This document shows positions 38,254-51,534 of a stretch of 64,000 nt of DNA, one piece after another; the stretch's first letter is position 1, and every line of letters starts with the position of its first letter. Source of the DNA: Parablautia sp. Marseille-Q6255 (GTDB taxonomy: Bacteria; Bacillota; Clostridia; Lachnospirales; Lachnospiraceae); the NCBI RefSeq assembly GCF_951230155.1, contig NZ_CATNVD010000021.1:1-64000 (forward strand), written 5' to 3'. The notes under the pieces are model-generated. The model was not told the DNA's origin, searched no databases, and was given only the letters and a program-made list of their open reading frames with translations. The position numbers were made by a program, and so were the translations under genes.

Positions 38254-39339
38254 TCAACGCCTGCCAGAGACTGCAACAGGCTTTTTCGTTACTATAAGCG
38301 CGGCTATTGCCGCCGCTGCACCGCCGATCAGCTTAGACACAAGCAGTGGAACGACCATGTCAGGCTCTGTGCCAAAAGTAAAGCCCATATGCGCAGCCAG
38401 TGCTGAAGCACCGCACACAAGAAACGCTGCATTGACGATCTTGCCTCTGTCATCCATATCCCTCATCATAGCCATCGCCGGCACCGGGCTTACAATTCCG
38501 ATCAGAAGCCCGGCGATACTGGTTTCATTCATCCCGGTCACTTTGCCCGCCCACCGAAGCGGGCGTCCGAGCATCCGTTTTAGAAGCTCTGCGACCGGAA
38601 GGCTGCCCAGCATCACAATACCAATAGAAGACACCACTCCCATCGCCTCCTCTATTGGCGCCAGATCCCCGGCTAACGACACGCCAGTCATATATCGGAC
38701 TGCTCCCGCGATCAGTCCGATCGTAGTAAGGATCCTGATCGCTCCTGCAAACCAACCGAACCCGCGAATCATTTTTTCCTGAAATCTGCCGATCCCTGCC
38801 ATGAGTAAAAATGACAGAAGGAAAATGGGGAGACTCTGAAGCAGCACCGTGCTCACACGCAGCCCGCAGAAGAGGCCGCCCACAAGAAGTGCCAGCGGCA
38901 TGACGCCAAGCCCCGTCAGAATACCCCTGGCAAACAGCGGACGATCCTCCTGTTCCAGCATCCCCATACCAACAGGGATCGTAAATGTAATCGTACAGCC
39001 AAACGTCGCCCCGATCACAAGCCCGGCATAGCTTGCCATCGCACTCTTTCTCGCAAGTTCTCCGGCAAGCTGATATCCGCCCATATCAATTGCCAGTATG
39101 CCTCCCAATGTCGCCGGGTCCAGCCCGGCCGCCAGCCACAAGGGCGCAGCAACGCGTTCCAGAAAGTCTGCAAGTACAGGCGCCAGACAGATAATCCCCG
39201 TCATAGAAAGCGCCGTGGCTCCAAGGAGCATAAATCCCTCTTCAAACCGTTTTCCAAATCCCAACCGGTTGCCCAGTATCCGGTCTGTCCCTCCGAGTAC
39301 AGCCCCGGCTGCCATAATCCACATCATGATCGTATTCAT
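38254..39339 (-). CDS. eutH: EutH-type ethanolamine permease
   Basis: 361 residues and about ten membrane helices. Signature parts of EutH are present: KRFEEGFMLLGATALSM, LAIDMGGYQLAGELA and HMGFTFGTEPDM. ATG 39339 follows GGAGTGGAAAACATACG. EutH brings ethanolamine into the cell. No other eut genes are visible in this window, so either the rest of the eut locus is elsewhere or this transporter serves another route. Confidence 0.9.
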   Translation of the reverse strand: MNTIMMWIMAAGAVLGGTDRILGNRLGFGKRFEEGFMLLGATALSMTGIICLAPVLADFLERVAAPLWLAAGLDPATLGGILAIDMGGYQLAGELARKSAMASYAGLVIGATFGCTITFTIPVGMGMLEQEDRPLFARGILTGLGVMPLALLVGGLFCGLRVSTVLLQSLPIFLLSFLLMAGIGRFQEKMIRGFGWFAGAIRILTTIGLIAGAVRYMTGVSLAGDLAPIEEAMGVVSSIGIVMLGSLPVAELLKRMLGRPLRWAGKVTGMNETSIAGLLIGIVSPVPAMAMMRDMDDRGKIVNAAFLVCGASALAAHMGFTFGTEPDMVVPLLVSKLIGGAAAAIAALIVTKKPVAVSGRR

Positions 39340-39537: not shown

Positions 39538-39834
39538 GATTCTGCACAGCAAAGTGATTATGCATATCTTCTGCCTGATGAAATTGCATCCTTTACAACA
39601 AATACTGTTTATAATAATGAGAATACTCACCTCTCCTTTACGCAGGGCGGCGGACACGGCGGCTCACACCCACATTTAGTCCATGATTTTGTCCGCTCTA
39701 TCATCGAAAACCGTAAACCGGCTATAGATGATATTATGGGCGCGTACTGGACGGGAACTGGAATCTGCGCACACGAATCCGCAATGCGAGGCGGAGAAGT
39801 CATCTCTATTCCTGCATTTGAAAATGTAGAATAA
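39538..39834 (+). pseudogene. C-terminal fragment of a Gfo/Idh/MocA-type oxidoreductase
   Basis: An open frame on the plus strand without start codon reads ...LPDEIASFTTNTVYNNENTH, then GGGHGGSHPHLVHDFVRSI and ICAHESAMRGG, ending at TAA 39832-39834. This is the C-terminal signature of sugar-type Gfo/Idh/MocA oxidoreductases. The NAD-binding domain is missing. Between 39340 and 39537 I see no gene. Confidence 0.65.
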
Positions 39835-39938: not shown

Positions 39939-40286
39939 TTATAACAGTTTTCTCAGAAGCTGCCTGCTTTTTTCGTGTATCAGCTTGATTTTATCCGGCG
40001 TAAGTGCGTCGATATGAATCCCACACGTACAGACTGCAGTACACGCTTTTTCTCTGGCAAATGTCTCTGCAAACAGCCTTGCCACTGCTTCTTCCTTATG
40101 TCCCATGCAGGACAGCACCGATGTAGTCACGCTCACGCCCTCTCCGGTAAGACTCGGCCGGGCTACGGATAAAACTGTGCTCCCTATGTGGGGACAGCTG
40201 CCCCCATATACGGCAAGTGTATAATCCCTTCCCATCTGAATCACATCACAAGTCAGAATATAACCATCAAATAGCTCAACTGTCAT
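39939..40286 (-). CDS. lpdD: LpdD-like protein (UbiD-system accessory)
   Basis: 115 residues from ATG 40286, overlapping the UbiX end by 11 bases, with GAGGCAGAGG upstream. It matches the small LpdD family (pattern YTLAVYGGSCPHIGSTVLS...ARPSL) that accompanies UbiD-type hydroxyaryl decarboxylases such as gallate decarboxylase of Lactobacillus plantarum, where LpdD has been proposed as a prenylated-flavin chaperone. It supports reading the three-gene block as one decarboxylase system. Confidence 0.75.
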   Translation of the reverse strand: MTVELFDGYILTCDVIQMGRDYTLAVYGGSCPHIGSTVLSVARPSLTGEGVSVTTSVLSCMGHKEEAVARLFAETFAREKACTAVCTCGIHIDALTPDKIKLIHEKSRQLLRKLL

Positions 40287-40854
40287 CCTCTGCCTCCATC
40301 CCCGTCCACGGCACAAAACGACCGCAGGTAATCCCAAACTGCAGCAGAACCTTTCCTACGACATGCCAGATCATATCCTCGACTGTTTTCGGATGATTAT
40401 AGAAAGTCAGCACAGGAGGAACAATGACACAGCCCAGATCTGATACCTCTTTCAGATTTCGGATATGTACTTTTCCAAAAGGCATCTCCCGCGGTACAAG
40501 TACCACCTTACGTCCCTCCTTCAGGCAGACGTCTGCTGCACGCAAGATCAGGTTCTCCGCATATCCGGTTGCAATTCCCGCCAGCGTTTTCATTGTACAT
40601 GGCATAATGATCATGCCATCTGTCACACAGGAGCCGCTGGAAATATCTGCCGCCATGTCCTCTACGCGGTAAACGGAATCTGCCAGCTCTAAAAGCTCCT
40701 CAAATGGGATTTTACTTTCCAGCTCCCAGGTCGTTCTTGCCCCGTTGCTTACGATCAAGTCTGCCTGACAGCCTGCTTCGCATGTTAATGCTTTTACCAG
40801 ATAATAGCTCATTTCTACTCCGGTAGCTCCCGTTACTCCTACTATGATCCTCAT
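40276..40854 (-). CDS. ubiX: UbiX-family flavin prenyltransferase
   Basis: 192 residues with the UbiX opening RIIVGVTGATGVEMSYYLV and later MIIMPCTMKTLAGIA and LVPREMPF. It prenylates FMN with dimethylallyl phosphate to make the prFMN cofactor of UbiD enzymes. It lies 12 bases after the UbiD gene. The linkage UbiD-UbiX-LpdD is typical for catabolic, non-ubiquinone decarboxylases. Confidence 0.92.
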   Translation of the reverse strand: MRIIVGVTGATGVEMSYYLVKALTCEAGCQADLIVSNGARTTWELESKIPFEELLELADSVYRVEDMAADISSGSCVTDGMIIMPCTMKTLAGIATGYAENLILRAADVCLKEGRKVVLVPREMPFGKVHIRNLKEVSDLGCVIVPPVLTFYNHPKTVEDMIWHVVGKVLLQFGITCGRFVPWTGMEAEDDS

Positions 40855-40866
40855 ACAGAATTCTCC

Positions 40867-42339
40867 TTATCTGCTTTGTTGCAGCCATTTGGAAACATCG
40901 GTTTCCAGAAAAGCAGCGCGTCGGAACCGTTCCTTCTGATCAAATGGTACGGTACAATCAAAAATTGTCTTGCATGCAATACCATGATCCCGAATCCATG
41001 GTGAGCAGGATGGATCATTTGACGGATCCAGGGGATGACAGCGCACTCCCGGGATTGTGATGATATCAGCGTCTCCCTGAAATCTTGTATTCATCGCCCA
41101 CAATACATCATTCATGTCAAAACAGTCCACATCCTCATCGACAAGAAAGACATGCTTCAGCTCTCCAAAAGCAGCAAATGCTAAAAGGGCAGCCTGACGC
41201 TGGCGTCCTTCATCACTTTGTACCGTTTTCTGAAACTGTAAAACAGCCATGTATTTCCCGCCTCCCGATGAAGCACAGTATACATTTTTTAGCTTTCCGG
41301 GCATTGCTTTTTCCACCATCCCATAAATACTTGCTTCTGTCGGAATGCCTGCCATCGAAACGTGCTCCTCACTTGGTCCGATACACGTCTGCATGATCGG
41401 ATGCCTGCGATGGGTCACCGCTTTTACTTTAATCAGCCAGCACTGGCCGCTTGCCGGTCCCGTATACCCGGGAAATTCCGGCATCGCATAACCGCTGTGG
41501 CTGTTCTGATCTTCCTGCACCCGGACATTTGGGACAACTTCCCCTTCGATTACGTATTCTGCGTTCGCAATCGCCCGCTGTTGTACCGTCATACAGCGGC
41601 ACAGCTTCACCGGCTCTCCCCGCAGAGCTCCTGCGATCGCCAGCTCATCATACCCCATCGGTGTAGACGGCGGCTCAAAACATGACCCAATCTCAATAGC
41701 CGGATCCACACCAATGCTGACCGAAATCGGCAGCGGTTCTCCTCTTCTTTCTGCACACTCTGCCATCGCTCCGATGTGTCTTGCACCTGGCACAAAGTAA
41801 ATGGACAGTTCATCCCTGCTCTGAATACACATACGATGGATCGTCACATCGCTCTTCCCTGTCTCCGGGTGCGTGGCATAGCACATCCCCATCGTAATAT
41901 AAGGCCCTGCATCGTCCGGTGTATTTGTCGGTGCCGGGATCAGCTTATACAGGTCAAAATCCTCATCAGATGCCAGATGTATCACTTCCTGACACTGTGC
42001 CTTTTCTTCTGTCACAACCGGCTGTATCGGATGTTCCAGACAGGCATGCAATCTTTTCCCCAGATCCTGAGGCGGGCAGTCTAAAAGCGCCGCTACACGT
42101 TTACGGCTCGCCAGCACTCCAATGACTACCTTCGCATCCGGATGCCCCTTTACACAGTGAAAAAGCATAGCCGGTCCCTCTTTTGTCGGTCGCTTTACGG
42201 TCCCTCCGGCACCTATGTATCGATATACGCCTGCAAGCTCCGCATCTGGATCCACTTCAATCTCTGTCTCAAGCAGCTCCCCATCCAGCTTCCGCAAAAG
42301 CTCCAGCGCACTTCTTAAATCATCTACCTTTTTTTTCAT
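40867..42339 (-). CDS. UbiD-family prFMN-dependent decarboxylase
   Basis: 490 residues, full family length. Seen: QNSHSGYAMPEFPGYTG near residues 278-294 with the acidic residues of the active site, and HRRHPIMQTCIGPSEEHV. The pattern is closer to hydroxyaryl decarboxylases (LpdC/gallate type) than to UbiD of quinone synthesis. The enzyme would decarboxylate an aromatic or unsaturated acid, or carboxylate in reverse. Substrate not deducible; the linked transporter and 2-oxoacid oxidoreductase hint at a carboxylic acid pathway. Confidence 0.88.
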   Translation of the reverse strand: MKKKVDDLRSALELLRKLDGELLETEIEVDPDAELAGVYRYIGAGGTVKRPTKEGPAMLFHCVKGHPDAKVVIGVLASRKRVAALLDCPPQDLGKRLHACLEHPIQPVVTEEKAQCQEVIHLASDEDFDLYKLIPAPTNTPDDAGPYITMGMCYATHPETGKSDVTIHRMCIQSRDELSIYFVPGARHIGAMAECAERRGEPLPISVSIGVDPAIEIGSCFEPPSTPMGYDELAIAGALRGEPVKLCRCMTVQQRAIANAEYVIEGEVVPNVRVQEDQNSHSGYAMPEFPGYTGPASGQCWLIKVKAVTHRRHPIMQTCIGPSEEHVSMAGIPTEASIYGMVEKAMPGKLKNVYCASSGGGKYMAVLQFQKTVQSDEGRQRQAALLAFAAFGELKHVFLVDEDVDCFDMNDVLWAMNTRFQGDADIITIPGVRCHPLDPSNDPSCSPWIRDHGIACKTIFDCTVPFDQKERFRRAAFLETDVSKWLQQSR

Positions 42340-42403
42340 TATGATTTTTCCTTTTCTGCTGATTTTTTACTGTATGTGATTTTATCGTACTCCAGTCTGA
42401 AAA

Positions 42404-42424
42404 GGGAGAGGCGCCGCCTCTCCC
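42404..42424 (-). terminator. hairpin between ptb and ubiD genes
   Basis: GGGAGAGGCGCCGCCTCTCCC is a perfect palindrome; on the minus strand CTTTTC follows. It lies 7 bases after the phosphate acyltransferase stop. The short T tract suggests partial termination and separate levels for the UbiD block. Confidence 0.65.
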
Positions 42425-42430
42425 TTACAG

Positions 42431-43333
42431 CTACATGCACTGCATAATAGCGGTCAGAATCGAATAATATTTATCTTCCGGAGAGTCCGTCCTGCTCGTC
42501 ATAACAACAGGAACCGTCGTACCGCAAAGCGTTCCAGAGGATACAATATTCGCAAAATAGTGAATTGATTTTGTAAAGATATTTCCGGCGCACAGATCCG
42601 GCATCAGAAGGATATCCGGCTTTCCTGCAACCGGACTGTGGATTCCTTTACATCTGGCAGCCTCCTGCGAAATCGCATTATCAAGCCCGAATGGTCCGTC
42701 TACGATGCAGCCCCTGATCTGGCCTCTGTCACAGGCCTTTGCAAGGAGCGCCGCATCTACCGTGGATGGCATTTTCGGATTGACTGTTTCCAGAGCGCAG
42801 ACAACTGCCACCTTCGGGCATTCAATATGAAGTGCACCTGCCAGCCTGACTGCGTTTTTAATCAGCTTCAGCTTGTCATTATAGTCCGGCGTCACATTCA
42901 CTGCGCAGTCTGTCACGATCATCATCCGATCCTGAAACTCCATCACCGTTGCCTGGCTCAAAAGCGCTCCGTCCGGGACAAAACCATATCGTTCCTTATC
43001 CAGAATACAGCGCATAAAGGTCGCTGTCTGCATCAGTCCCTTCATCGGCATATCCGCTTTTCCGTCTTTCACCATCTGGCAGGCCAGCATACCGGCTTTC
43101 CGCTCATCTGCTTCTTCGATTATTTCATACGCATTCCGATCTTCCCCCATTTTTTCGAGAAGATCCGCGATTTTTTCCGGAATGCCAATGAGTACCGGCT
43201 CAATAACGCCTCTTTTCGCTGCCATGACAACAGCAGAAAGTGTATCCTCATCCTGCGCATTCGCAAGTACAAGCCTCTTTTTGATTTTCTGATCTAAAAT
43301 ATATGCTTCGATTTCTTTAAAACAATGAAACAT
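42431..43333 (-). CDS. ptb: phosphate butyryltransferase (Ptb)-type acyltransferase
   Basis: 300 residues, the size of Ptb. Features include DTLSAVVMAAKRGVIEPVLIG, ADMPMKGLMQTATFMR, VDGPFGLDNAISQEA and PDLCAGNIFTKS, conserved in Ptb/Pta. It exchanges CoA on an acyl-CoA for phosphate. Next to butyrate kinase, it would make acyl phosphate for ATP. The real acyl group may be butyryl, isobutyryl, isovaleryl or another short or aryl acid. Confidence 0.88.
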   Translation of the reverse strand: MFHCFKEIEAYILDQKIKKRLVLANAQDEDTLSAVVMAAKRGVIEPVLIGIPEKIADLLEKMGEDRNAYEIIEEADERKAGMLACQMVKDGKADMPMKGLMQTATFMRCILDKERYGFVPDGALLSQATVMEFQDRMMIVTDCAVNVTPDYNDKLKLIKNAVRLAGALHIECPKVAVVCALETVNPKMPSTVDAALLAKACDRGQIRGCIVDGPFGLDNAISQEAARCKGIHSPVAGKPDILLMPDLCAGNIFTKSIHYFANIVSSGTLCGTTVPVVMTSRTDSPEDKYYSILTAIMQCM

Positions 43334-43376
43334 CGTTCTCTCCTATCGTAATCTGCTCTACATGTTCTGAAATTGT

Positions 43377-44441
43377 TTATTTCAGTTCCCTGATCTCGAT
43401 CTCGCCATTCAGAGCGGCAAGTGTATTAAGGCCGAGTGCCTGCATCTCGTACTCTCCCGGATATACGGCGATCGGTGCAATAAACCTGACTGCATCTGCA
43501 ATCATACCGACAATCCACTCAGAATAAGACATTCCTCCCGTAAACAGTATGGCATCTACCTCTCCTTTGAGTACCGTTGCATCCGCTCCAATCTCTTTTG
43601 CAACCTGATAGCACATGGCCTGCATCACTTCCTGGCACATCTCATCGCCTGCCTTGGCTCGTTCTTCGATCGTCTTTGCATCATTTTCTCCAAGATATCC
43701 GACTAATCCTGAATTTCCATTGATCAGCTTTTTCATCTCCGGATAGGTATAGTCTCCTGAATAGCAAAGTCTCACAAGCTCACCAACCGGAACCGTACAG
43801 CAGCGGTTTGCAGAAAACGGGCCGTCTCCATCCAGAGCATTATTTGCATCCACCAACTTTCCTTTTTTATGCACCGCAACACTGATGCCGCCTCCCATAT
43901 GTACGCCGATCAGATTCAGATCCTCATATCTTTTCCCCTGATCCTTCGCATACTGTCTGCCTACTGCACGGTGATTGAGTACGTGGAAACTGCTTCTTCT
44001 TTCCATACCCGGGATACCGCTGTAACGGGCCAGCGGTTCAAATTCATCCGTAGACGGCGGATCAACGGTAAATGCCTGAACTCCTCTTTTTGCAAATTCT
44101 GTTACAATCTGCAGACCGAGGTCGGTCGGATGATTCCCATATTTCTCACTCCTTGACTGTTCCAGCATTTTTTCCGTCACGCGGTAGATGCCGCCTGTGA
44201 TCGGCTGCGTATGCCCGCCTCTTGTCGCTACCGCATCCAGTTCTTCTATTTTGATCCCCTTTTGCTCCAGATACTGCTCAATCTGCTTCGTCCTGTAATC
44301 CAGCTGATCCCAGATACTGTCAAAAGCGCGGATGACGGATGCCTCGTGTTTGATATTATCCTTAAAAACGCACCTTTCATCCTCATAATAAGCAATCTTC
44401 GTAGACGTTGAGCCCAGGTTAATTGCTACAATTTTTTTCAT
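43377..44441 (-). CDS. buk: butyrate kinase-type acyl kinase
   Basis: 354 residues of the acetate/butyrate kinase family: phosphate motif LGSTSTKIAYYED, HVLNHRAVGRQYAKD, GVHMGGGISV and late ILFTGGMSYS. The length is that of Buk, shorter than acetate kinase. It turns acyl phosphate plus ADP into acid plus ATP, completing substrate-level phosphorylation with the Ptb encoded 43 bases downstream. Confidence 0.92.
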   Translation of the reverse strand: MKKIVAINLGSTSTKIAYYEDERCVFKDNIKHEASVIRAFDSIWDQLDYRTKQIEQYLEQKGIKIEELDAVATRGGHTQPITGGIYRVTEKMLEQSRSEKYGNHPTDLGLQIVTEFAKRGVQAFTVDPPSTDEFEPLARYSGIPGMERRSSFHVLNHRAVGRQYAKDQGKRYEDLNLIGVHMGGGISVAVHKKGKLVDANNALDGDGPFSANRCCTVPVGELVRLCYSGDYTYPEMKKLINGNSGLVGYLGENDAKTIEERAKAGDEMCQEVMQAMCYQVAKEIGADATVLKGEVDAILFTGGMSYSEWIVGMIADAVRFIAPIAVYPGEYEMQALGLNTLAALNGEIEIRELK

Positions 44442-44456
44442 TTACGTTCCTCCTCG

Positions 44457-45848
44457 TCAGATGATCCCTATTGACTTACCCAGCAGCATAGATAATGCGC
44501 AGACTGGAATCCAGATCAGTGAAATAATAATACCCGGCTTTGCCATCTCGCCAAGCTTCCAGTAACCGTATCCGTACGTGGTAAGCGGAATCGGGTCAAG
44601 CGGAATAATGAATACGGCAGACGCTGTAAATCCAAGCGGCAGTACGAGATAAAGCGGATTTACGCCGATCGAGGTGGCAAGTACGGTTACGATCGGTACG
44701 CAAACTGCCAAAACGGCATTCGCTACCGGAACAAGCAGATGACTGAAAATTCCAAACGCTGTCACTACCATAAGTAATACGATCAGGGACGCGCCTTCCA
44801 CAGACCCTAATATACTGTTCGAAATCCACTCGGCTGTTCCCTGTGTGCTTAATATCATTGCGATCGCATTCGCAGACCCAATCAGCAAAACAGACTCCCA
44901 ACTGATCGCATCTTTTGCAGTTTTCCAGTCCATAAGATCCATACCTGGCAGGAAAAAGACGCAAACTGCCAGCAAAGATGCAAATGCCGTCTCAATCCCA
45001 GTCATTGACTGCGTAAACCAAAGCACCATAACAATAATAAAAATGACCAGAAACTTTTTTTCATTTGTTGTCATCGGTCCGATTTCACGTCTCTTGGCCT
45101 TAATATCATCCAGACCCTTTACCGTTTCAATTTCCGGTTTAAATACAAGAGTGATGACAAACCATGCAATCAGCACCAAAACGATTGCCATCGGAAAGCC
45201 AATCGCAGTCCACTGCAAAAATGTAATATTTTTTCCTGCTACATTATTCAACAGGTTGATCGTCAAAATATTCAGTCCGCTTCCCGCCGGTGTCGCAATA
45301 CCCCCAAGAGCCGCTGAGATCGGAATGCCGATCATGACCGCTTTTCCGTATTTACTCTTCCCCGGTTCACATCCGCTCTCTTTTAAAAGCGGCAGTGCAA
45401 TCCCGGCCAGAATGATCGCCGTCGGAATATCTACCAAAACAGAAGAGATCAGACATCCGCATAGCATGATACTTAAAAGGACCATATTGCTTTTCGCACC
45501 AAACAGCGGAGTAATATACAGGGAAATACGATAGCCAAGCCCGCTGCTGATAAATACCTTCGCGATAATCAGTGATGCCATAACAAAAAACATGGTCGCG
45601 ATACCAAAATTGCCCAGAACCGCAGGTGTTTTTTCAATGCCAAGAAATCCCGGTAAAAAGAGCAAAAAACAGGAGGAAATCCCGATCGGGATAAATTCCG
45701 TCACCCACGTATAAACACAGCAGATCATAAGGAGCAAGGCTTTCCATCCATTTTCTGATAATCCGAACGGCGGCGCCATATTTGAAAAAATAAGATAAAA
45801 AGCAACTGCTACAAGCAACTCAATATATATTTTTGCAGACTTCTTCAT
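44457..45848 (-). CDS. SLC13/DASS-family carboxylate transporter
   Basis: 463 residues from ATG 45848 with about twelve hydrophobic helices. SLC13-type signatures: an early ATMFFVMASLIIAKVFISSG, PAGSGLNILTINL and a late PLGFTASAVFIIPLDPIPL. Members carry di- or tricarboxylates, 2-oxoacids or sulfate, driven by Na+ or by exchange. In this cluster it is the likely importer of the starting acid or exporter of the product acid. Confidence 0.88.
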   Translation of the reverse strand: MKKSAKIYIELLVAVAFYLIFSNMAPPFGLSENGWKALLLMICCVYTWVTEFIPIGISSCFLLFLPGFLGIEKTPAVLGNFGIATMFFVMASLIIAKVFISSGLGYRISLYITPLFGAKSNMVLLSIMLCGCLISSVLVDIPTAIILAGIALPLLKESGCEPGKSKYGKAVMIGIPISAALGGIATPAGSGLNILTINLLNNVAGKNITFLQWTAIGFPMAIVLVLIAWFVITLVFKPEIETVKGLDDIKAKRREIGPMTTNEKKFLVIFIIVMVLWFTQSMTGIETAFASLLAVCVFFLPGMDLMDWKTAKDAISWESVLLIGSANAIAMILSTQGTAEWISNSILGSVEGASLIVLLMVVTAFGIFSHLLVPVANAVLAVCVPIVTVLATSIGVNPLYLVLPLGFTASAVFIIPLDPIPLTTYGYGYWKLGEMAKPGIIISLIWIPVCALSMLLGKSIGII

Positions 45849-45882
45849 ACTTAAGTAAAACCTCCCTCTTTTCAAAACTTTG

Positions 45883-46755
45883 CTACATGGCAGCAAGCTT
45901 TTCCAGGTATTCATACCGGGAAATCAGATGTTCTCTGGTCGCCTGCTTCTCTTCTTCTGAAGCACCCCGAAATCTCTTTTGCAGAGAAAAATAATTTTCT
46001 ATATCCCCAAGTTTTGACGGCTTTTTCCCAAGTTTTATTTTTCCATTTTCATATTCCAATAAAACCCAGGCTCCGCTCTCAATCGCCTCTCTCGCCACTT
46101 CAACGGTCTTGTTCATTTTGTATCCCCAGCCAGTCGGACACGGACTCATAATATGAAGCACACGGCATCCCTTTACTTCTTTTGCCTTCTGTACCTTCTT
46201 TCTCAGATCAGAAAGGTTGGCAACGGATGCGGTAGCTGCATACGGCACATGATGAGCCATCACGATCTGAATCAGATCCTTATTATTTACCGGCTTACCG
46301 GCAGGCGTTGTTGTCGTGCTTGCCCCCAGTGGCGTCGAGCTGCTTCCCTGTACCCCCGTGTTCATATACGCCTCATTATCGTAACAGATGTACAAGATGT
46401 TATCATTACGCTCCATCGCTCCACTTAAGGACTGAATACCGATATCCACTGTTCCCCCATCACCGGCAATCGCTACGACCTGCGTATGTTCGTTACCCTG
46501 ATGTTTCAATCCTGCCGCAATACCTGCCGCGATCGCCGCTGAGTTTTCCAGGTTTCCCTGGATACCGGGCACTGTTACGGAGGATTCCGGTCCGCATCCA
46601 GAAAACTGAGCCGCGCATCCTGGCGGAATAACAAGAATAGTATCCTCCCCCATAATATCCAGTACATTTCTGAAAATCACATCGATCATACAGCCCTGGC
46701 ATGTATTGATACCAGGAGACACTGCCCCCTTTGGCTGAACTTTATACGTTAACAT
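45883..46755 (-). CDS. porB: 2-oxoacid:ferredoxin oxidoreductase, beta subunit
   Basis: 290 residues from ATG 46755 (GGGAGGTGGAAACGT). The TPP-binding motif GDGGTVDIGIQSLSGAMERN, cysteine pair CQGC near the start and CYDNEAYMNTGVQ loop identify the beta subunit of four-subunit POR/VOR enzymes. It overlaps the alpha gene end by 14 bases. It carries the thiamine cofactor and the Fe-S cluster that passes electrons to the delta subunit. Confidence 0.92.
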   Translation of the reverse strand: MLTYKVQPKGAVSPGINTCQGCMIDVIFRNVLDIMGEDTILVIPPGCAAQFSGCGPESSVTVPGIQGNLENSAAIAAGIAAGLKHQGNEHTQVVAIAGDGGTVDIGIQSLSGAMERNDNILYICYDNEAYMNTGVQGSSSTPLGASTTTTPAGKPVNNKDLIQIVMAHHVPYAATASVANLSDLRKKVQKAKEVKGCRVLHIMSPCPTGWGYKMNKTVEVAREAIESGAWVLLEYENGKIKLGKKPSKLGDIENYFSLQKRFRGASEEEKQATREHLISRYEYLEKLAAM

Positions 46756-47953
46756 ACGTTTCCACCTCCCTGATATCCATCGCATCCGGTCTTACATCAA
46801 ACCAGGAATGTACCTGCTCCGCTTTTCCATGGTATACATCAAACAATTCTCCAAATATCTTATGGAAAGAGCCATCGGAAATATCACGTCCTGCAATACC
46901 TCCGTGAAATCCAAACACCTTTGCCGGCAGACCGCAAAGTGCTGCCTTTACCTCCGTACAGACCGGTCCCTGAGCTGCTCCCAGACCACTGGAGCGATCT
47001 ACTACACCGATCACCGGGATATTTTTGAGCGCTTCCCTTATCTCCTCTGCCGGGAACGGGCGGAACATGCAGATCCTGAGAAGCCCTGCCCGGACTCCTT
47101 TTTCACGAAGCTGATCTACGACATATTTTCCAGTACCGGACATTGAACCAATTGTCACCACTGCAACCTGGGCATCCTCCAGACGATATGTTTCTACAGC
47201 CTGCAGCTTTCTGCCAAAACGTTCCTCATATTCAGCAAATACCTCTTTCGCTACAACTGCCGCTTTATCAAATCCTGTCTTTTGCTGGTATTTCATTTCT
47301 GTATGCTCCACAGTCGGGCATAAATCGTTGATAAACATGACATCTTTTGGATCAAGATACATGTTTTTACGCACATACGGCCTGACAAAATCCCATGCCT
47401 CTTCATCAGACGGCGTATCCACACGCTGCATGGAATGTGACAGGTAAAATCCATCAAAGCAGACCATCGACGGCGTCATTACTTCCTCGTGTTCACTGAT
47501 ACGATATGCACATAACTGCAGATCCAGAATTTCCTGTACTGTAGAGCAATAAAACTGCAGCCATCCTGTATCTCTCTCAGCCATTGTGTCAGAATGATCG
47601 CACCACAGGGACCACGGCGCCACAAGAGAACGGTTCACGACCGGCATAACGATCGGAACACGGCAGCCTGCCGCCACGCCGCACACCTCATGCATCAGCG
47701 CCAGACCTACCGATGCGGTCGCCGTAGCAACACGCACCCCTGTCAGCTGCGCTCCGATCGAAACAGACATAGCAGAATGTTCTGATTCTACACGCACATA
47801 TTCTGCCTGGATTCTTCCTTCCGCAACTTCATCCGCCAAATGCTCCGCAATTGAACTCTGTGGTGTGATCGGATAAGCCGCTATCACACCCGGGCGCGCC
47901 AGCCGGATCGCCTCCACCGCTGCACCATTACCATCAAACATTTTGATCGCCAT
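46742..47953 (-). CDS. porA: 2-oxoacid:ferredoxin oxidoreductase, alpha subunit
   Basis: 403 residues, the size of PorA/VorA rather than the shorter KorA. Opening GNGAAVEAIRLARPGVIAAY and YPITPQSSIAEHLAD plus the EHSAMSVSIGAQLTG loop are diagnostic. ATG 47953 overlaps the delta gene stop. With beta, gamma and delta it oxidatively decarboxylates a 2-oxoacid to acyl-CoA. Sequence alone does not tell pyruvate from branched or aryl 2-oxoacids. Confidence 0.93.
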   Translation of the reverse strand: MAIKMFDGNGAAVEAIRLARPGVIAAYPITPQSSIAEHLADEVAEGRIQAEYVRVESEHSAMSVSIGAQLTGVRVATATASVGLALMHEVCGVAAGCRVPIVMPVVNRSLVAPWSLWCDHSDTMAERDTGWLQFYCSTVQEILDLQLCAYRISEHEEVMTPSMVCFDGFYLSHSMQRVDTPSDEEAWDFVRPYVRKNMYLDPKDVMFINDLCPTVEHTEMKYQQKTGFDKAAVVAKEVFAEYEERFGRKLQAVETYRLEDAQVAVVTIGSMSGTGKYVVDQLREKGVRAGLLRICMFRPFPAEEIREALKNIPVIGVVDRSSGLGAAQGPVCTEVKAALCGLPAKVFGFHGGIAGRDISDGSFHKIFGELFDVYHGKAEQVHSWFDVRPDAMDIREVETYVNV

Positions 47954-48237
47954 TACTTTTCACTCCCTTCCGGCACCATGGTAAGCGCCTGCTTCGGACA
48001 TTCATTGGCGCAAATCCCACAGCCTTTACAGTAATTCCAGTCAAACTCCAGCGTTTTTTTATCTTTGTCCACCGTAATACAGGCAGTAGGGCAGTATTTT
48101 TCACAGATTCCACACCGGATGCAGACATCATTGTCAACCTCTGGTCTGACCAGCCTCCAGCTTCCTGTATTGTACGCCACTAAAATGTGAGAACACGGTC
48201 CAAGTACTCTACGCTTCCCAGGTGTGCTCGTATGCAT
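47953..48237 (-). CDS. porD: 2-oxoacid:ferredoxin oxidoreductase, delta (ferredoxin) subunit
   Basis: About 94 residues with two 4Fe-4S motifs (CIRCGICEKYCP and CKGCGICANECP), the usual PorD ferredoxin-like subunit. The frame is open further upstream; ATG 48237, 48255 or 48276 could be used, all overlapping the gamma gene end. It transfers electrons from the TPP subunit to external ferredoxin. Order gamma-delta-alpha-beta is that of archaeal and Thermotoga POR/VOR operons. Confidence 0.88.
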   Translation of the reverse strand: MHTSTPGKRRVLGPCSHILVAYNTGSWRLVRPEVDNDVCIRCGICEKYCPTACITVDKDKKTLEFDWNYCKGCGICANECPKQALTMVPEGSEK

Positions 48238-48760
48238 ATCTTGCTGCTTTTGCATTCTTTTCACCAACCTTTCCAAAACTTTCTGTTACAGCCTTTTCTA
48301 TCGCATCCAGTGTTACTACTCCGCTTTTTGCAAGTGCTCCAAGCATGGCGCTGTTTGGAATATTCAAGCCGATATTCTCCAGCGCTGCTGTTGTCGCATC
48401 ACACGCATATACCGTTTTAAGGCCACACGCCTTTTTATACCGCTCTGCCATTTCTTTGCTCGATGTATTCAGAACGAGAACCGTCTCCTGTGTGCACCCT
48501 TCTTTCACATCGACTCCCATATCGAGCAGATTTTCATCAAAAACAACAATAATATCCGGCTCATATACATAACAATTAAGCAGCACCGGTTTCTCATCCA
48601 CAATAATATGCGCATAGACAGGTGCTCCTCTTCTCTCATGCCCATAGGCCGGAACTGTGATGGCATACTCGTCCTGATGCAGCGATACAGCGATCGACAA
48701 AATCTTGGCGGCTGTAACGGCACCCTGCCCTCCTATCCCGTAAAATTTAATTTTTTTCAT
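48209..48760 (-). CDS. porC: 2-oxoacid:ferredoxin oxidoreductase, gamma subunit
   Basis: 183 residues with the gamma-subunit signature YGIGGQGAVTAAKILSIA and YGHERRGAPVYAHI. ATG 48760 follows AAAGGAGGAAGGAAA. First gene of the leftward cluster, with its promoter 70-95 bases upstream. Gamma is a structural subunit of the complex. Confidence 0.92.
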   Translation of the reverse strand: MKKIKFYGIGGQGAVTAAKILSIAVSLHQDEYAITVPAYGHERRGAPVYAHIIVDEKPVLLNCYVYEPDIIVVFDENLLDMGVDVKEGCTQETVLVLNTSSKEMAERYKKACGLKTVYACDATTAALENIGLNIPNSAMLGALAKSGVVTLDAIEKAVTESFGKVGEKNAKAARYAYEHTWEA

Positions 48761-48798
48761 TTTCCTTCCTCCTTTAATTCTTTATATGAATTATTTAC

Positions 48799-48915
48799 TT
48801 CGTATATAGAAATACTATGATCTGTATTATACTTATAAAACCATATTTTGTCATTATAAGTAGTTTACAAATCGTCAAGTTTATTTTTGTTGAATTTTAC
48901 TTTTCTCTATACGAA
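48799..48915. promoter_or_regulatory. IclR / por divergent control region
   Basis: On the minus strand ATGACA (48854-48849), 17-bp spacer, TATAAT (48831-48826) form the por-cluster promoter. TTCGTATATAGA (48799-48810), just downstream of the start site, and its inverted copy TCTATACGAA (48906-48915) upstream are candidate sites for the divergent IclR protein. The rest up to 49014 is AT-rich with only a weak rightward promoter. Confidence 0.55.
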
Positions 48916-49014
48916 CTATTCATCCATTTCTTTTTGCTTCACACAGAGAAATAAATATGCTATTCTAAAAATGGTAATTCCGTAGAAATCAATAAGGGAG
49001 GGAGAAAAGTTACG

Positions 49015-49791
49015 ATGGAAACAAACGAAAAATATATTTTGCAGTCAGTTGCAAATACTTTAGATATTCTTGACCTTCTTGCAGAACAGCAGAATCTGAG
49101 CGTTCCTGAAATTTCTGAAAAATCCGGCTTGGGAAAAAGTTCTGTTTTTCGTATCCTTGCCACTCTTGAATCAAAAAATTATGTGCAGAAATCAGAGTCT
49201 GCCCGTTACTCGTTAGATATCAGACTTTCCTATCTGGGGCAGGCAGCCATGGAGCAGAATAACCTGATCAAATACGGACACCCTTATCTGGAAACATTGA
49301 CCGAGCGATCCGGCGAGACATCCCATCTGGCAGTTCCTTACCGGGCAGTTTATGTCCGCTTTATTGATAAGGTTGTCAGCAGCGCTACTATCCATATGGA
49401 CTCTCACCCCGGCTTTTTCCGCCATTCACATTACGTAGCCTGCGGCAAGGTCCTCCTTGCCTATGGATCAGAAATAACCCGGGATAATTATGTCCGAAAT
49501 GTTCCATTTTCCTCCATGACACGCCACAGCATCCCTTCTGCAAAGGAGCTGCTCGTCGAACTGGAAACAATCAAAAAACGGGGATATGCTATTGATAACG
49601 AAGAAAGTGAATATGGCCTGATCTGTGTTGCTGCTCCTGTCCTGAGCCATAACGGTCAGGCGATTGCTGCAATCAGTATCTCGGGGCCTTCTTCCCGTAT
49701 GCTGGAAAACATGGAAAAAAACATTGCAATTGTAACAGAGACCGGAAAAGCGATTACTGAAAAGCTTGGCTCGCTCGCTTCTCCAGATTGA
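49015..49791 (+). CDS. IclR-family transcriptional regulator
   Basis: 258 residues: winged HTH at about 8-70 (QSVANTLDILDLLAEQQN; SEKSGLGKSSVFRILATL) followed by the IclR effector-binding domain (ETSHLAVPYRAVYVRFIDKV; HYVACGKVLLAY). GGGAGGGAG lies upstream of ATG 49015. IclR proteins often respond to aromatic or carboxylic acids and control a divergent catabolic operon, exactly the arrangement with the por-Ptb-Buk-UbiD cluster. Confidence 0.92.
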   Translation: METNEKYILQSVANTLDILDLLAEQQNLSVPEISEKSGLGKSSVFRILATLESKNYVQKSESARYSLDIRLSYLGQAAMEQNNLIKYGHPYLETLTERSGETSHLAVPYRAVYVRFIDKVVSSATIHMDSHPGFFRHSHYVACGKVLLAYGSEITRDNYVRNVPFSSMTRHSIPSAKELLVELETIKKRGYAIDNEESEYGLICVAAPVLSHNGQAIAAISISGPSSRMLENMEKNIAIVTETGKAITEKLGSLASPD

Positions 49792-50056: not shown

Positions 50057-50105
50057 AGGACAAAGAAAAACCGGAAATCTTTGATTTCCGGTTTTTCTTT
50101 GTCCT
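50057..50105. terminator. 23-bp perfect inverted repeat, bidirectional terminator
   Basis: Arms at 50057-50079 and 50083-50105 are perfectly complementary around a TTT loop, with A/T-rich outer parts giving a T tract on either strand. It touches the stop codon of the YoeB-like gene. Confidence 0.8.
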
Positions 50106-50364
50106 AATCCTCATAATGATATTTACACGCATATATAATCAGGTTTTGATTACTATCCATATTATATACTAGCCTATGCTCATCTGTAATGCGCCTGCTA
50201 CACGCCTTACGGTATTTTAACAGCTCAGGTTTACCAATACCGTTCAAAAGTCCACTGCGGTCAATATCTTTGATAAGTTCATTGATCCGCTTTACTATCT
50301 TTTTATCTTCTTTCTGCCATTCGGTGTATTGCTCCCACGCAGTAGGCGTGAATACTATGTTCAT
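50104..50364 (-). CDS. yoeB: Txe/YoeB-family toxin
   Basis: 86 residues of the YoeB mRNA-interferase family: WQKEDKKIVKRINELIKD, GKPELL, SRRITDEHRLVY and the C-terminal CKYHYED with the catalytic His-Tyr. Compared with E. coli YoeB, the loop before SRRI is shorter (KYRKAC instead of an SGFW-type loop), so activity could be altered. ATG 50364 abuts the antitoxin stop. Such toxins cleave mRNA at the ribosome. Confidence 0.9.
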   Translation of the reverse strand: MNIVFTPTAWEQYTEWQKEDKKIVKRINELIKDIDRSGLLNGIGKPELLKYRKACSRRITDEHRLVYNMDSNQNLIIYACKYHYED

Positions 50365-50619
50365 TTACTTGCAAGCCTCCAACTCTGCAATAGTCTTTGC
50401 AATAAATCCGCCTGTCTCGGCTTCTTCCATAGATTTATCTATCATGGCAAGATAATCTGCATTTCTCTTGATTTTCATCATTTCATTGTATTCTTGTTCA
50501 GACAGCATGACAACATTTTCATTTTTGGGTCTTGATATAATCAATGTTTCGCCTCTAAAAACTTTATCGCATAAACTCTTGAAATTATCTCTAACATCCA
50601 TGCTCTTTACAGCTAACAT
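50365..50619 (-). CDS. yefM: Phd/YefM-family antitoxin
   Basis: 84 residues from ATG 50619 (AAAGGAGTGCTTT). The N-terminal part (VRDNFKSLCDKVFRGETLII, then RPKNENVVMLSEQEYNEM) is the YefM DNA-binding fold; the acidic C-terminus neutralises the toxin. It comes first in the operon, as usual, and represses its own promoter. Confidence 0.9.
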   Translation of the reverse strand: MLAVKSMDVRDNFKSLCDKVFRGETLIISRPKNENVVMLSEQEYNEMMKIKRNADYLAMIDKSMEEAETGGFIAKTIAELEACK

Positions 50620-50668
50620 ATAAAGCACTCCTTTCCGTATCAAAAATCGTATTGTTTTTCGTACTTTT

Positions 50669-50774: not shown

Positions 50775-51420
50775 TGTTGTAGTTGACGGACTGATCCAAA
50801 TAAATCCGGTTGACAATGTATCCGTTCACGGGCATAAAGATAAGGATTATCAGGAAGAACTGTTGTTCATGACGGAAGAAGAAATCGCGGATCTTCTGCA
50901 TTTTCTGTCAGAACACTATCCGCGTTTAGTAGGAATCGCATTTATGGCCGCTTATTATGGGTTACGGCGTTCCGAAATTTTAGGCTTAAAATGGTCTGCT
51001 ATTGATTTTCAGAAAGACATTCTTCACATTCAGCATACCGTTACATCTGTAAAACAGATTCATGCAGAAGATTCTGCAAAAACAGTTGCAGGCAAACGGG
51101 ATCTTGTTCTTTTTGAAACAGCCAGAAAATGCTTATTGCAAATCCGGCAGGAGCAGGAAGTAAACAAAGCATTTTTCAAAAATGCCTATAAAATACGGCT
51201 GGGTATGTTTTCACGTGGGAAGATGGCACTTTATATTGACCGGATTACATATATCATCTTTTCAGAAAGGCAATGATAAAATTTGGTCGTCCGGAAATTT
51301 CTCTGGCTACGGCAGATTTATTTGATTAGTTTTTTGGGTAACGTTTTGGGTAACGCCTTGAAAAAGATGAGAACCGGAGGACTTATATCATCGAAAGAAA
51401 GATATGAAAAACGCCGGAAA
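50775..51420 (+). pseudogene. broken tyrosine recombinase/integrase
   Basis: Catalytic-domain remains: INPVDNVSV, EEIADLLHFLSEHYPRL and AAYYGLRRSEILGLKW with the first catalytic arginine. The frame then shifts near 51190: FTWEDGTLY continues in the next frame, meets a TGA and goes on as PDYIYHLFRKA. The N-terminal domain is missing. It lies 3' of tRNA-Pro(CGG), a usual insertion place for such elements, so it is probably what remains of an excised or decayed island. Confidence 0.75.
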
Positions 51421-51445: not shown

Positions 51446-51460
51446 ACTTCCTAAATGAAG

Positions 51461-51534
51461 TCGATGCGACAGGATTTGAACCTGCGACCTCTGCGTCCCG
51501 AACGCAGCGCTCTACCAAGCTGAGCCACGCATCG
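51461..51534 (-). tRNA. tRNA-Pro (anticodon CGG)
   Basis: Read leftward: acceptor CGATGCG/CGCATCG, D-arm with GGTAGAGC, anticodon stem CTGCG/CGCAG around loop TTCGGGA (anticodon CGG), T-arm AGGTTCAAATCCT, discriminator A. The 74 bases fit a complete tRNA. CCA is not encoded, so the CCA-adding enzyme encoded in this window is needed for it. Confidence 0.93.

Follow-up and report, generated by a model that had tools for sequence, protein, structure and literature searches.

Ptb-type phosphate acyltransferases and Buk-type acyl kinases have been described beside several 2-oxoacid oxidoreductases, and these systems were compared with a gene cluster found in a 64,000-nucleotide stretch of the genome of Parablautia sp. 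Marseille-Q6255 (Lachnospiraceae; contig NZ_CATNVD010000021.1, positions 1 to 64,000), which is referred to below as the window. This cluster comprises ten leftward genes, for a four-subunit 2-oxoacid:ferredoxin oxidoreductase (POR), an SLC13-type carrier, Buk, Ptb, UbiD, UbiX and LpdD, and a divergent regulator gene of the IclR family. In the bkd cluster of Enterococcus faecalis, Ptb and Buk presumably stand behind an acyl-CoA-forming lipoamide dehydrogenase complex, not a ferredoxin enzyme, with no UbiD. Phenylglyoxylate dehydrogenase (Pad) includes a fifth subunit, and this subunit is absent from the window cluster.

In Clostridium scatologenes, the HpdDEFG-HpdJ-HpdK system, reported in 2026, converts hydroxyphenylpyruvate to p-cresol and in doing so forms reduced ferredoxin and ATP; in C. 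difficile, kinases resembling Buk are active on phenylacetate and hydroxyphenylacetate (PMC13285125). Hpd and the window share a four-subunit POR-family enzyme, a Ptb-like protein, a Buk-like protein and a terminal decarboxylase in one cluster. They differ in that HpdE falls in cluster 3 of that report with the VOR enzymes and uses hydroxyphenylpyruvate, whereas the window POR resembles, by the hidden Markov model (HMM) scores obtained here, the PorA/PadG group (its cluster 6); in that the last Hpd enzyme is the glycyl-radical decarboxylase HPAD, which gives p-cresol, whereas that of the window is a UbiD; and in the SLC13 carrier and IclR regulator of the window. No HPAD was detected in a search confined to the ten proteins of the cluster. 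Loci of Blautia hydrogenotrophica and Intestinibacter bartlettii likewise hold phosphate butyryltransferase and butyrate kinase homologues beside a 2-oxoacid:ferredoxin oxidoreductase, which differs in acting on 2-oxoacids derived from amino acids (PMC13290082). The PadEFGHI systems (e.g., in Desulfotomaculum gibsoniae; PMC4148979) share with the window the broad POR group and the proposed conversion of an arylglyoxylate to aroyl-CoA. The window POR scored under the PadE, PadF, PadG and PadI cut-offs, and its product would go to an acid and ATP, not to the benzoyl-CoA ring-reduction route.

The sequence-only reading of the window had treated the joining of a POR-family enzyme to Ptb and Buk as new, but this was already published in the first two of these reports. 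What is new here is confined to the UbiD/UbiX/LpdD ending, the SLC13 carrier and the predicted substrate. No occurrence of UbiD was counted in the main text of PMC13285125 or in PMC13290082, and no report of por-Ptb-Buk with UbiD was found in the literature searched, most subscription papers being beyond its reach. The window cluster may be an IclR-controlled operon that ferments an aromatic 2-oxoacid and ends with UbiD, the likeliest substrate being a para-hydroxylated arylglyoxylate. We put this reading forward tentatively.

Gene content of the window cluster

All ten leftward genes and the divergent gene were present and intact where the sequence-only reading had placed them, and its family names were upheld by Pfam- and TIGRFAM-type domain scores. 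The alpha, beta, gamma and delta subunits of the oxidoreductase were all found, with their domains (PF01558, Fer4, PF01855, PF17147 and PF02775). The gamma subunit, PorC (48209..48760), scored 160.6 bits against TIGR02175 (cut-off, 81.1), and the delta subunit, PorD (47953..48255), predicted to hold two [4Fe-4S] clusters, scored 93.1 against TIGR02179 (cut-off, 60). The alpha subunit, PorA (46742..47953), was assigned by domain matches and has orthologues of 74 to 88% identity in 13 other genomes, and the beta (thiamine pyrophosphate) subunit, PorB, lies at 45883..~46755. Overlaps join porD to porC and porB to porA. UbiX flavin prenyltransferase (40276..40854) scored 207 against TIGR00421 (cut-off, 109), and LpdD (39939..~40286), whose gene overlaps ubiX, scored 106 against PF21758 (cut-off, 27). 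LpdD-type proteins act as chaperones of reduced prenylated flavin mononucleotide (prFMNH2) (PMC10865409). The starts of porD, porB, the carrier gene and lpdD were set by eye. The IclR-family gene, assigned by family match, occupies 49015..49791 on the forward strand.

Buk (43377..44441) scored 454 bits against the butyrate kinase model TIGR02707, above its cut-off of 289. Ptb (42431..43333; PTA_PTB, PF01515) scored below both equivalogs, with 321 for TIGR02706 (cut-off, 410.5) and 133 for TIGR02709 (cut-off, 475), and is thus related to but outside the butyrate and branched-chain Ptb groups. The carrier (44457..~45848) reached the SLC13/DASS score (TIGR00785, 203.5; cut-off, 198.6). The two SNT motifs of SLC13/DASS proteins bind substrate; in an alignment, the window protein had VDI and VPV in their place, and five SLC13 proteins of 74 to 82% identity retained VDI and had VPV or IPV at the second site. 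The loss of both motifs argues against a plain C4-dicarboxylate carrier. A dicarboxylate (oxaloacetate or 2-oxoglutarate) or sulfonate substrate, an idea prompted by the SLC13, 2-hydroxycarboxylate transporter (2HCT), tripartite ATP-independent periplasmic (TRAP) and DctA-like carriers, was dropped for the window on this ground and because it left UbiD unexplained.

The window is part of contig 21 of a 3.79-Mb genome in 40 contigs. A separate one-chain pyruvate:ferredoxin oxidoreductase (1,787 bits) is encoded on contig 1, the window Buk is the only butyrate kinase above the cut-off in the whole genome, and the only UbiD and the only UbiX above their cut-offs both lie inside the cluster. The separate pyruvate enzyme and the sole Buk indicated that the cluster POR is not a housekeeping enzyme and that its Buk is no spare copy. 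A housekeeping role in pyruvate or butyrate metabolism was therefore disfavored, and the doubt raised by the sequence-only reading, that por, ptb and buk might serve plain pyruvate or butyrate fermentation, was answered in the negative, as judged by gene content.

Decarboxylase type and predicted substrate

The window UbiD (40867..42339), which has the N-terminal, Rift and C-terminal UbiD domains, was compared with solved UbiD proteins. The best scores were to the AroY 3,4-dihydroxybenzoate decarboxylases 5ny5, 5o3n and 5o3m (621.9, 621.7 and 603.6 bits), and the next type scored 231. AroY residues R188, H327, K363, H436 and E289, with roles in binding of the catechol and carboxylate groups (PMC5656893), are conserved as R187, H326, K362, H435 and E288; these were mapped by hand on the alignment, and Arg181 of that paper lies outside the mapped set. 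The score against the VdcC model (NF041204, 'hydroxyarylic acid decarboxylase') was 468, under the cut-off of 650. The window UbiD is thus predicted to be of the AroY, or protocatechuate decarboxylase, type, and it differs from the AroY enzymes described in that this type is here tied to por-Ptb-Buk in some genomes.

A second UbiD subfamily was found with the same core in G465, a genome of another family, in which a por relative of 54% identity stands in the order M20 hydrolase-PanE-buk-UbiD-lpdD-ubiX-porCDAB-ptb (locus L137). This UbiD is of the VdcC type (758 bits; cut-off, 650), its nearest Protein Data Bank entry being the phenolic acid decarboxylase 7ae4 (716 bits). Both the AroY and the VdcC types are groups named for para-hydroxybenzoates. 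No other finding speaks as strongly for a para-hydroxybenzoate as the acid released by the por-Ptb-Buk core as does the joining of two UbiD subfamilies to that core. If the acid R-COOH is a para-hydroxybenzoate, then R is hydroxyphenyl and the POR substrate would be a hydroxyphenylglyoxylate. An AroY-type UbiD needs an aryl carboxylate and arylpyruvates would give arylacetates, which are not known substrates of AroY or VdcC enzymes, and an arylglyoxylate was preferred for this reason. Of the substrates that the sequence-only reading had allowed, an aromatic acid is therefore retained, whereas branched-chain and aliphatic dicarboxylic acids fit the whole unit poorly because the UbiD is of the AroY type.

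In the proposed pathway, the acid would be imported by the SLC13-type carrier, the candidates being 4-hydroxy-, 3,4-dihydroxy- and 4-hydroxy-3-methoxyphenylglyoxylate or, in relatives with a PanE-type dehydrogenase, the matching hydroxymandelate. PorCDAB would convert the arylglyoxylate to aroyl-CoA, CO2 and reduced ferredoxin, Ptb would form aroyl-phosphate, and Buk would yield ATP together with a hydroxybenzoate, which in the window would be protocatechuate. Loaded with prenylated flavin by UbiX and LpdD, UbiD would then release catechol or phenol and CO2, and this release would pull the pathway forward and make its reversal hard. A ferredoxin enzyme feeding Ptb and Buk for ATP, as first suggested from the sequence, is supported, and UbiD probably acts at the end of the route rather than at its start. 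The Hpd precedent for hydroxyphenylpyruvate and the aryl acids used by the Buk-like kinases of C. difficile speak for a pathway of this kind (PMC13285125). Hydroxybenzoylformates (4-hydroxy) have been discussed as lignin-derived aryl-C2 fragments (PMC9811514 and PMC11288888).

The oxidoreductase itself was less informative. PorA scored 428 bits against the pyruvate synthase model NF040682 (cut-off, 550); scores were 344 for PadG (NF045764) and 226 for PadI (NF045766), with a cut-off of 700, and 269 and 216 for oxalate oxidoreductase alpha and beta (cut-offs, 500 and 590). The use of the Pad HMMs as substrate proof was rejected, since PORs of other clusters scored higher: 496 and 377 for PadG and PadI in L036, beside a gene like that of the acetate-CoA ligase alpha subunit, and 464 and 374 in L035, with Ptb, Buk and IclR genes nearby. 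A second POR, more like PadG and PadI and adjoining a CoA-transferase gene, was present near the por orthologue in L048 and L139/L049; PadG was its best alpha model in L048 and L139 (420 and 439), and it was dropped as support on the same objection. PorB positions that set the clade apart from other PORs (P44, A48, Q65, L68 and G136, among others) were used for no claim of specificity.

POR reactions are reversible, and a synthetic direction was weighed, in which Buk and Ptb or a CoA-transferase would activate an imported aryl or branched acid and POR would add a carboxyl group, the resulting 2-oxoacid serving the synthesis of amino acids or natural products. This reversibility would permit it, and in G575 (L138, 3-12163) a POR that belongs to this wider clade (53% identity) lies with genes for a PaaK-like CoA ligase, an aminotransferase and nonribosomal peptide synthetase (NRPS) adenylation and condensation domains in place of Buk and Ptb; reductive carboxylation in that cluster may supply a building block of the amino-acid type. 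For the window, a synthetic role seems very unlikely: no aminotransferase is among the cluster genes, a UbiD decarboxylase and a carrier suit breakdown, and ATP would be spent.

Recurrence of por and its linkage to ubiD

In a sample of 200 genomes of the family searched at an E value of 1e-60, PorA matches were obtained in 68: three at 85 to 100% identity (the host itself, G015 and G154) and one, in G149, at 55%, all others lying near 36 to 46%. PorA of at least 85% was present in 5 of 397 family genomes, the host included, with two more at 55 to 56%, and 391 genomes of the class gave the host's own PorA and five at 53 to 61%. A pattern-based scan of contigs, limited in reach to close relatives, yielded 33 loci, 13 of them (L038 to L050) at 74 to 88% and L051 at 60%; L041, L042, L049 and L050 correspond to the records G015, G154, G694 and G735, respectively. 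The 13 orthologue records belong to Lachnospiraceae, Oscillospiraceae and other Clostridia, and several of their titles name rumen, omasum or duodenum. G152, the sole genome of the same genus in the samples, gave no PorA match and no UbiD match, so that the cluster is patchy in its distribution. A plasmid search with PorB returned 44 records, all below 60% identity.

The neighbors of por varied among the clusters. SLC13 genes of 74 to 82% identity stood beside por in 6 of 14 clusters (window, L038, L039, L041, L043 and L050), with weaker ones in L049 (44%) and L044 (30%). Buk and Ptb genes were present in four of the 14 (window, L041, L050 and, split, L044), and a CoA-transferase gene (PF01144) followed por in L038, L039, L042, L043, L047 and L048 and lay in a divergent neighboring operon in L049; PF01144 was scanned on the L038 copy only, the others being grouped with it by BLAST. 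If the function of this position is to release the acid from acyl-CoA, a CoA-transferase in some clusters where others carry Ptb and Buk is what one would expect. In L045 and L046, genes of the PanE-like and URO-D-like kinds were seen, with neither Ptb and Buk nor a CoA-transferase; L040, a 4-kb contig, could not be judged for neighbors. In the group at 53 to 61% (L034, L051, L134 to L138 and L140), Buk and Ptb stood beside por in six of eight, and Ptb was present in L135, a 4.4-kb contig. These comparisons indicated that the common core is por and an acyl-CoA-to-acid step, usually with an organic-anion carrier.

Some neighbors were recorded as observations in their own right. URO-D-family proteins, encoded next to por in L044, L045 and L046, are possibly methyltransferases and might then have methoxylated aromatic compounds as substrates. 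In the distant relatives L034, L054, L063 and L140, porC is immediately preceded by genes for two proteins with no assigned role, one with [4Fe-4S] motifs and one without a Pfam match (252 and 209 amino acids in L034). An LpdD-like match of 26% upstream of the IclR gene in L038 was discarded, as the open reading frame (ORF) called there had no Pfam match.

A ubiD gene stood beside por in 5 of 14 clusters, in three gene arrangements: por-SLC13-buk-ptb-ubiD-X-lpdD in the window, buk-ptb-por-SLC13-ubiD-X-lpdD in Diplocloster agilis (L041) and D. modestus (L050), and por-SLC13-CoA-transferase-ubiD in L038 and L039, with ubiX next in L039. All five clusters also contain SLC13. UbiD is thus a recurrent, not a constant, addition to the por core. 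The claim that these genes form one catabolic unit was supported, and the association recurs in other Clostridia genomes; gene order is conserved in part, as modules, and the orders of the modules differ.

In a tree of AroY-type UbiD proteins, the four other linked copies formed a supported set (97/95) that excluded that of the window, which fell among 11 unlinked copies in another set, of 12 rows (95/92). The linked label required at least two changes on this tree, compared to a mean of 4.7 after shuffling, and none of 500 shuffles was as low, so that linked copies do cluster. Forcing the five linked copies into one clade cost 8.6 log-likelihood units (approximately unbiased [AU] test, P = 0.0502), which weakens the argument for independence; the tree no more than suggests independent assembly of the AroY-type linkage. 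G465 is a firmer case than this tree for repeated joining of UbiD to por, and no second such case was found in 200 genomes of its order, so that the VdcC-type linkage rests on one genome. These data bear on whether a UbiD cassette that is mobile landed by chance next to a por operon, the two then being inherited or transferred together. The patchy spread of por, the same-genus genome in which neither protein was found and the borderline AU result fit such hitch-hiking, which we nevertheless consider unlikely, given linkage in five of 14 genomes in different orders, the other UbiD subfamily of G465 and the excess of UbiD in genomes with por (8 of 13 other por genomes versus 17 of the 197 sampled from the family; P = 1e-5 by Fisher's test, indicative only, as the groups were unmatched in taxonomy and sampling).

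Several observations weigh against the reading of the whole cluster as an arylglyoxylate operon. The specificity of POR is not readable from sequence: PorA and PorB reach no substrate-specific equivalog cut-off, and the Pad models, under their cut-offs for the window, are neither its best match nor diagnostic. For indolepyruvate oxidation, likewise, no predictive motif was found according to PMC13290082. UbiD proteins of 61 to 80% identity were present in 20 of 200 family genomes, the host included, and are mostly stand-alone: none of 24 stretches around copies outside the linked clusters contained por, and ubiX was seen in 22 (one place is counted twice among the 24, and three further stretches are from other por-orthologue genomes). 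Among the 13 other por-orthologue genomes, AroY-type UbiD of 62 to 79% identity was linked in four, unlinked in four and not found in five (G202 and G205 to G208); por can thus exist without it in the nine in which it is missing or unlinked. The AU result is compatible with one origin for the linkage of AroY-type UbiD. Some relatives have por beside aminotransferase, TRAP or 2HCT carrier or NRPS genes, so that substrates may differ within the wider clade. PanE-like 2-hydroxyacid dehydrogenases could channel hydroxymandelates into the pathway in L045, L046, L051 and L137, where their genes lie next to por, but the L137 protein had no match in the host genome at an E value of 1e-10 and weak matches only in Diplocloster (23 to 24%); the host would then have to take up the 2-oxoacid as such or rely on a different dehydrogenase. 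The nearest solved structures to the L137 and L051 proteins are named 2-dehydropantoate 2-reductase, among them 3wfi, probably a D-mandelate dehydrogenase; kinship with D-mandelate dehydrogenase was considered and not retained as evidence.

Directly 3' of ptb is an 11-bp hairpin with UUUU (42402..42426, reverse strand; -31 kcal/mol over a 76-nt stretch; z score, -4.9), a candidate terminator or attenuator before ubiD, which was unlisted by a terminator scan asking for a run of at least five T residues because its run is of four. Similar hairpins, for which no z score was obtained, lie 5' of ubiD in L041 and L050, and this too counts against a single unit. Given the hairpin in the window, all ten genes may not form one uniform transcript. 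Separate regulation of the UbiD block may accordingly occur in the window and in Diplocloster and is unlikely in L038 and L039, in which only 8 and 11 bp separate ubiD from the CoA-transferase gene that precedes it.

The hairpins in these three clusters fit an arrangement in parallel rather than in sequence, with por-Ptb-Buk fermenting arylpyruvates or branched-chain 2-oxoacids, as in HpdDEFG-J-K or VOR, and UbiD, UbiX and LpdD separately decarboxylating phenolic acids, the two blocks sharing only the habitat and perhaps an IclR signal. AroY-type UbiD is common as a lone cassette, aminotransferase genes lie near por in L044 and L048, and the POR-Ptb-Buk trio has been shown for hydroxyphenylpyruvate (PMC13285125). 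This alternative is a serious one, if rather doubtful. Against it are the joining of two types of para-hydroxybenzoate decarboxylase to por-Ptb-Buk cores, the closeness of ubiD to the CoA-transferase gene in L038 and L039, its place between buk and por in L137, and the presence of SLC13 in all five AroY-linked clusters; and the L044 aminotransferase had no homologue in the stretches of the four AroY-linked relatives, other aminotransferase classes and all flanking ORFs being unchecked.

Flanking features and biological meaning

A promoter-like site before porC (ATGACA-17-TATAAT; 48854-48826, reverse strand) was a consensus match only. It is spanned by an inverted repeat with 20-nt arms, 80% complementary (48819..48873), an operator candidate at which the IclR-type protein might act. 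Downstream of the cluster, an EutH-family ethanolamine-type transporter (PF04346, 404 bits) is encoded at 38254-39339, and an open fragment on the forward strand at 39601-39828 (GGHGGSHPHLVHDFVRSII...GGEVISIPAFENV) resembles, by eye, the C-terminal end of a Gfo/Idh/MocA-type oxidoreductase. Genes for a YefM-type antitoxin and a YoeB-type toxin lie near the IclR gene (50104-50643, reverse strand). An integrase fragment (50863-51276, forward strand) adjoins tRNA-Pro (51460-51534, reverse strand) 1 to 2 kb beyond the IclR gene, a possible old integration site near the cluster.

Beyond the window, the preferred reading of an arylglyoxylate operon extends to a wider proposal, held with slightly more reserve: gut and rumen clostridia may ferment hydroxyarylglyoxylates and hydroxymandelates of plant or host origin to catechols and phenols by an energy-yielding route, undescribed as yet and assembled more than once from separate modules, namely an arylglyoxylate:ferredoxin oxidoreductase, ATP synthesis by way of aroyl-phosphate and a prenylated-flavin decarboxylase as thermodynamic pull. 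Diplocloster is presumably of human-gut origin. If the proposal is true, gut anaerobes would have an oxygen-independent means of making ATP from aryl-C2 acids that leaves the ring unreduced, and a source of gut catechol and phenol would be indicated. The Hpd pathway of 2026 would acquire another ending, and a testable substrate would be predicted for an orphan POR clade that occurs in Diplocloster, a named genus with isolates.

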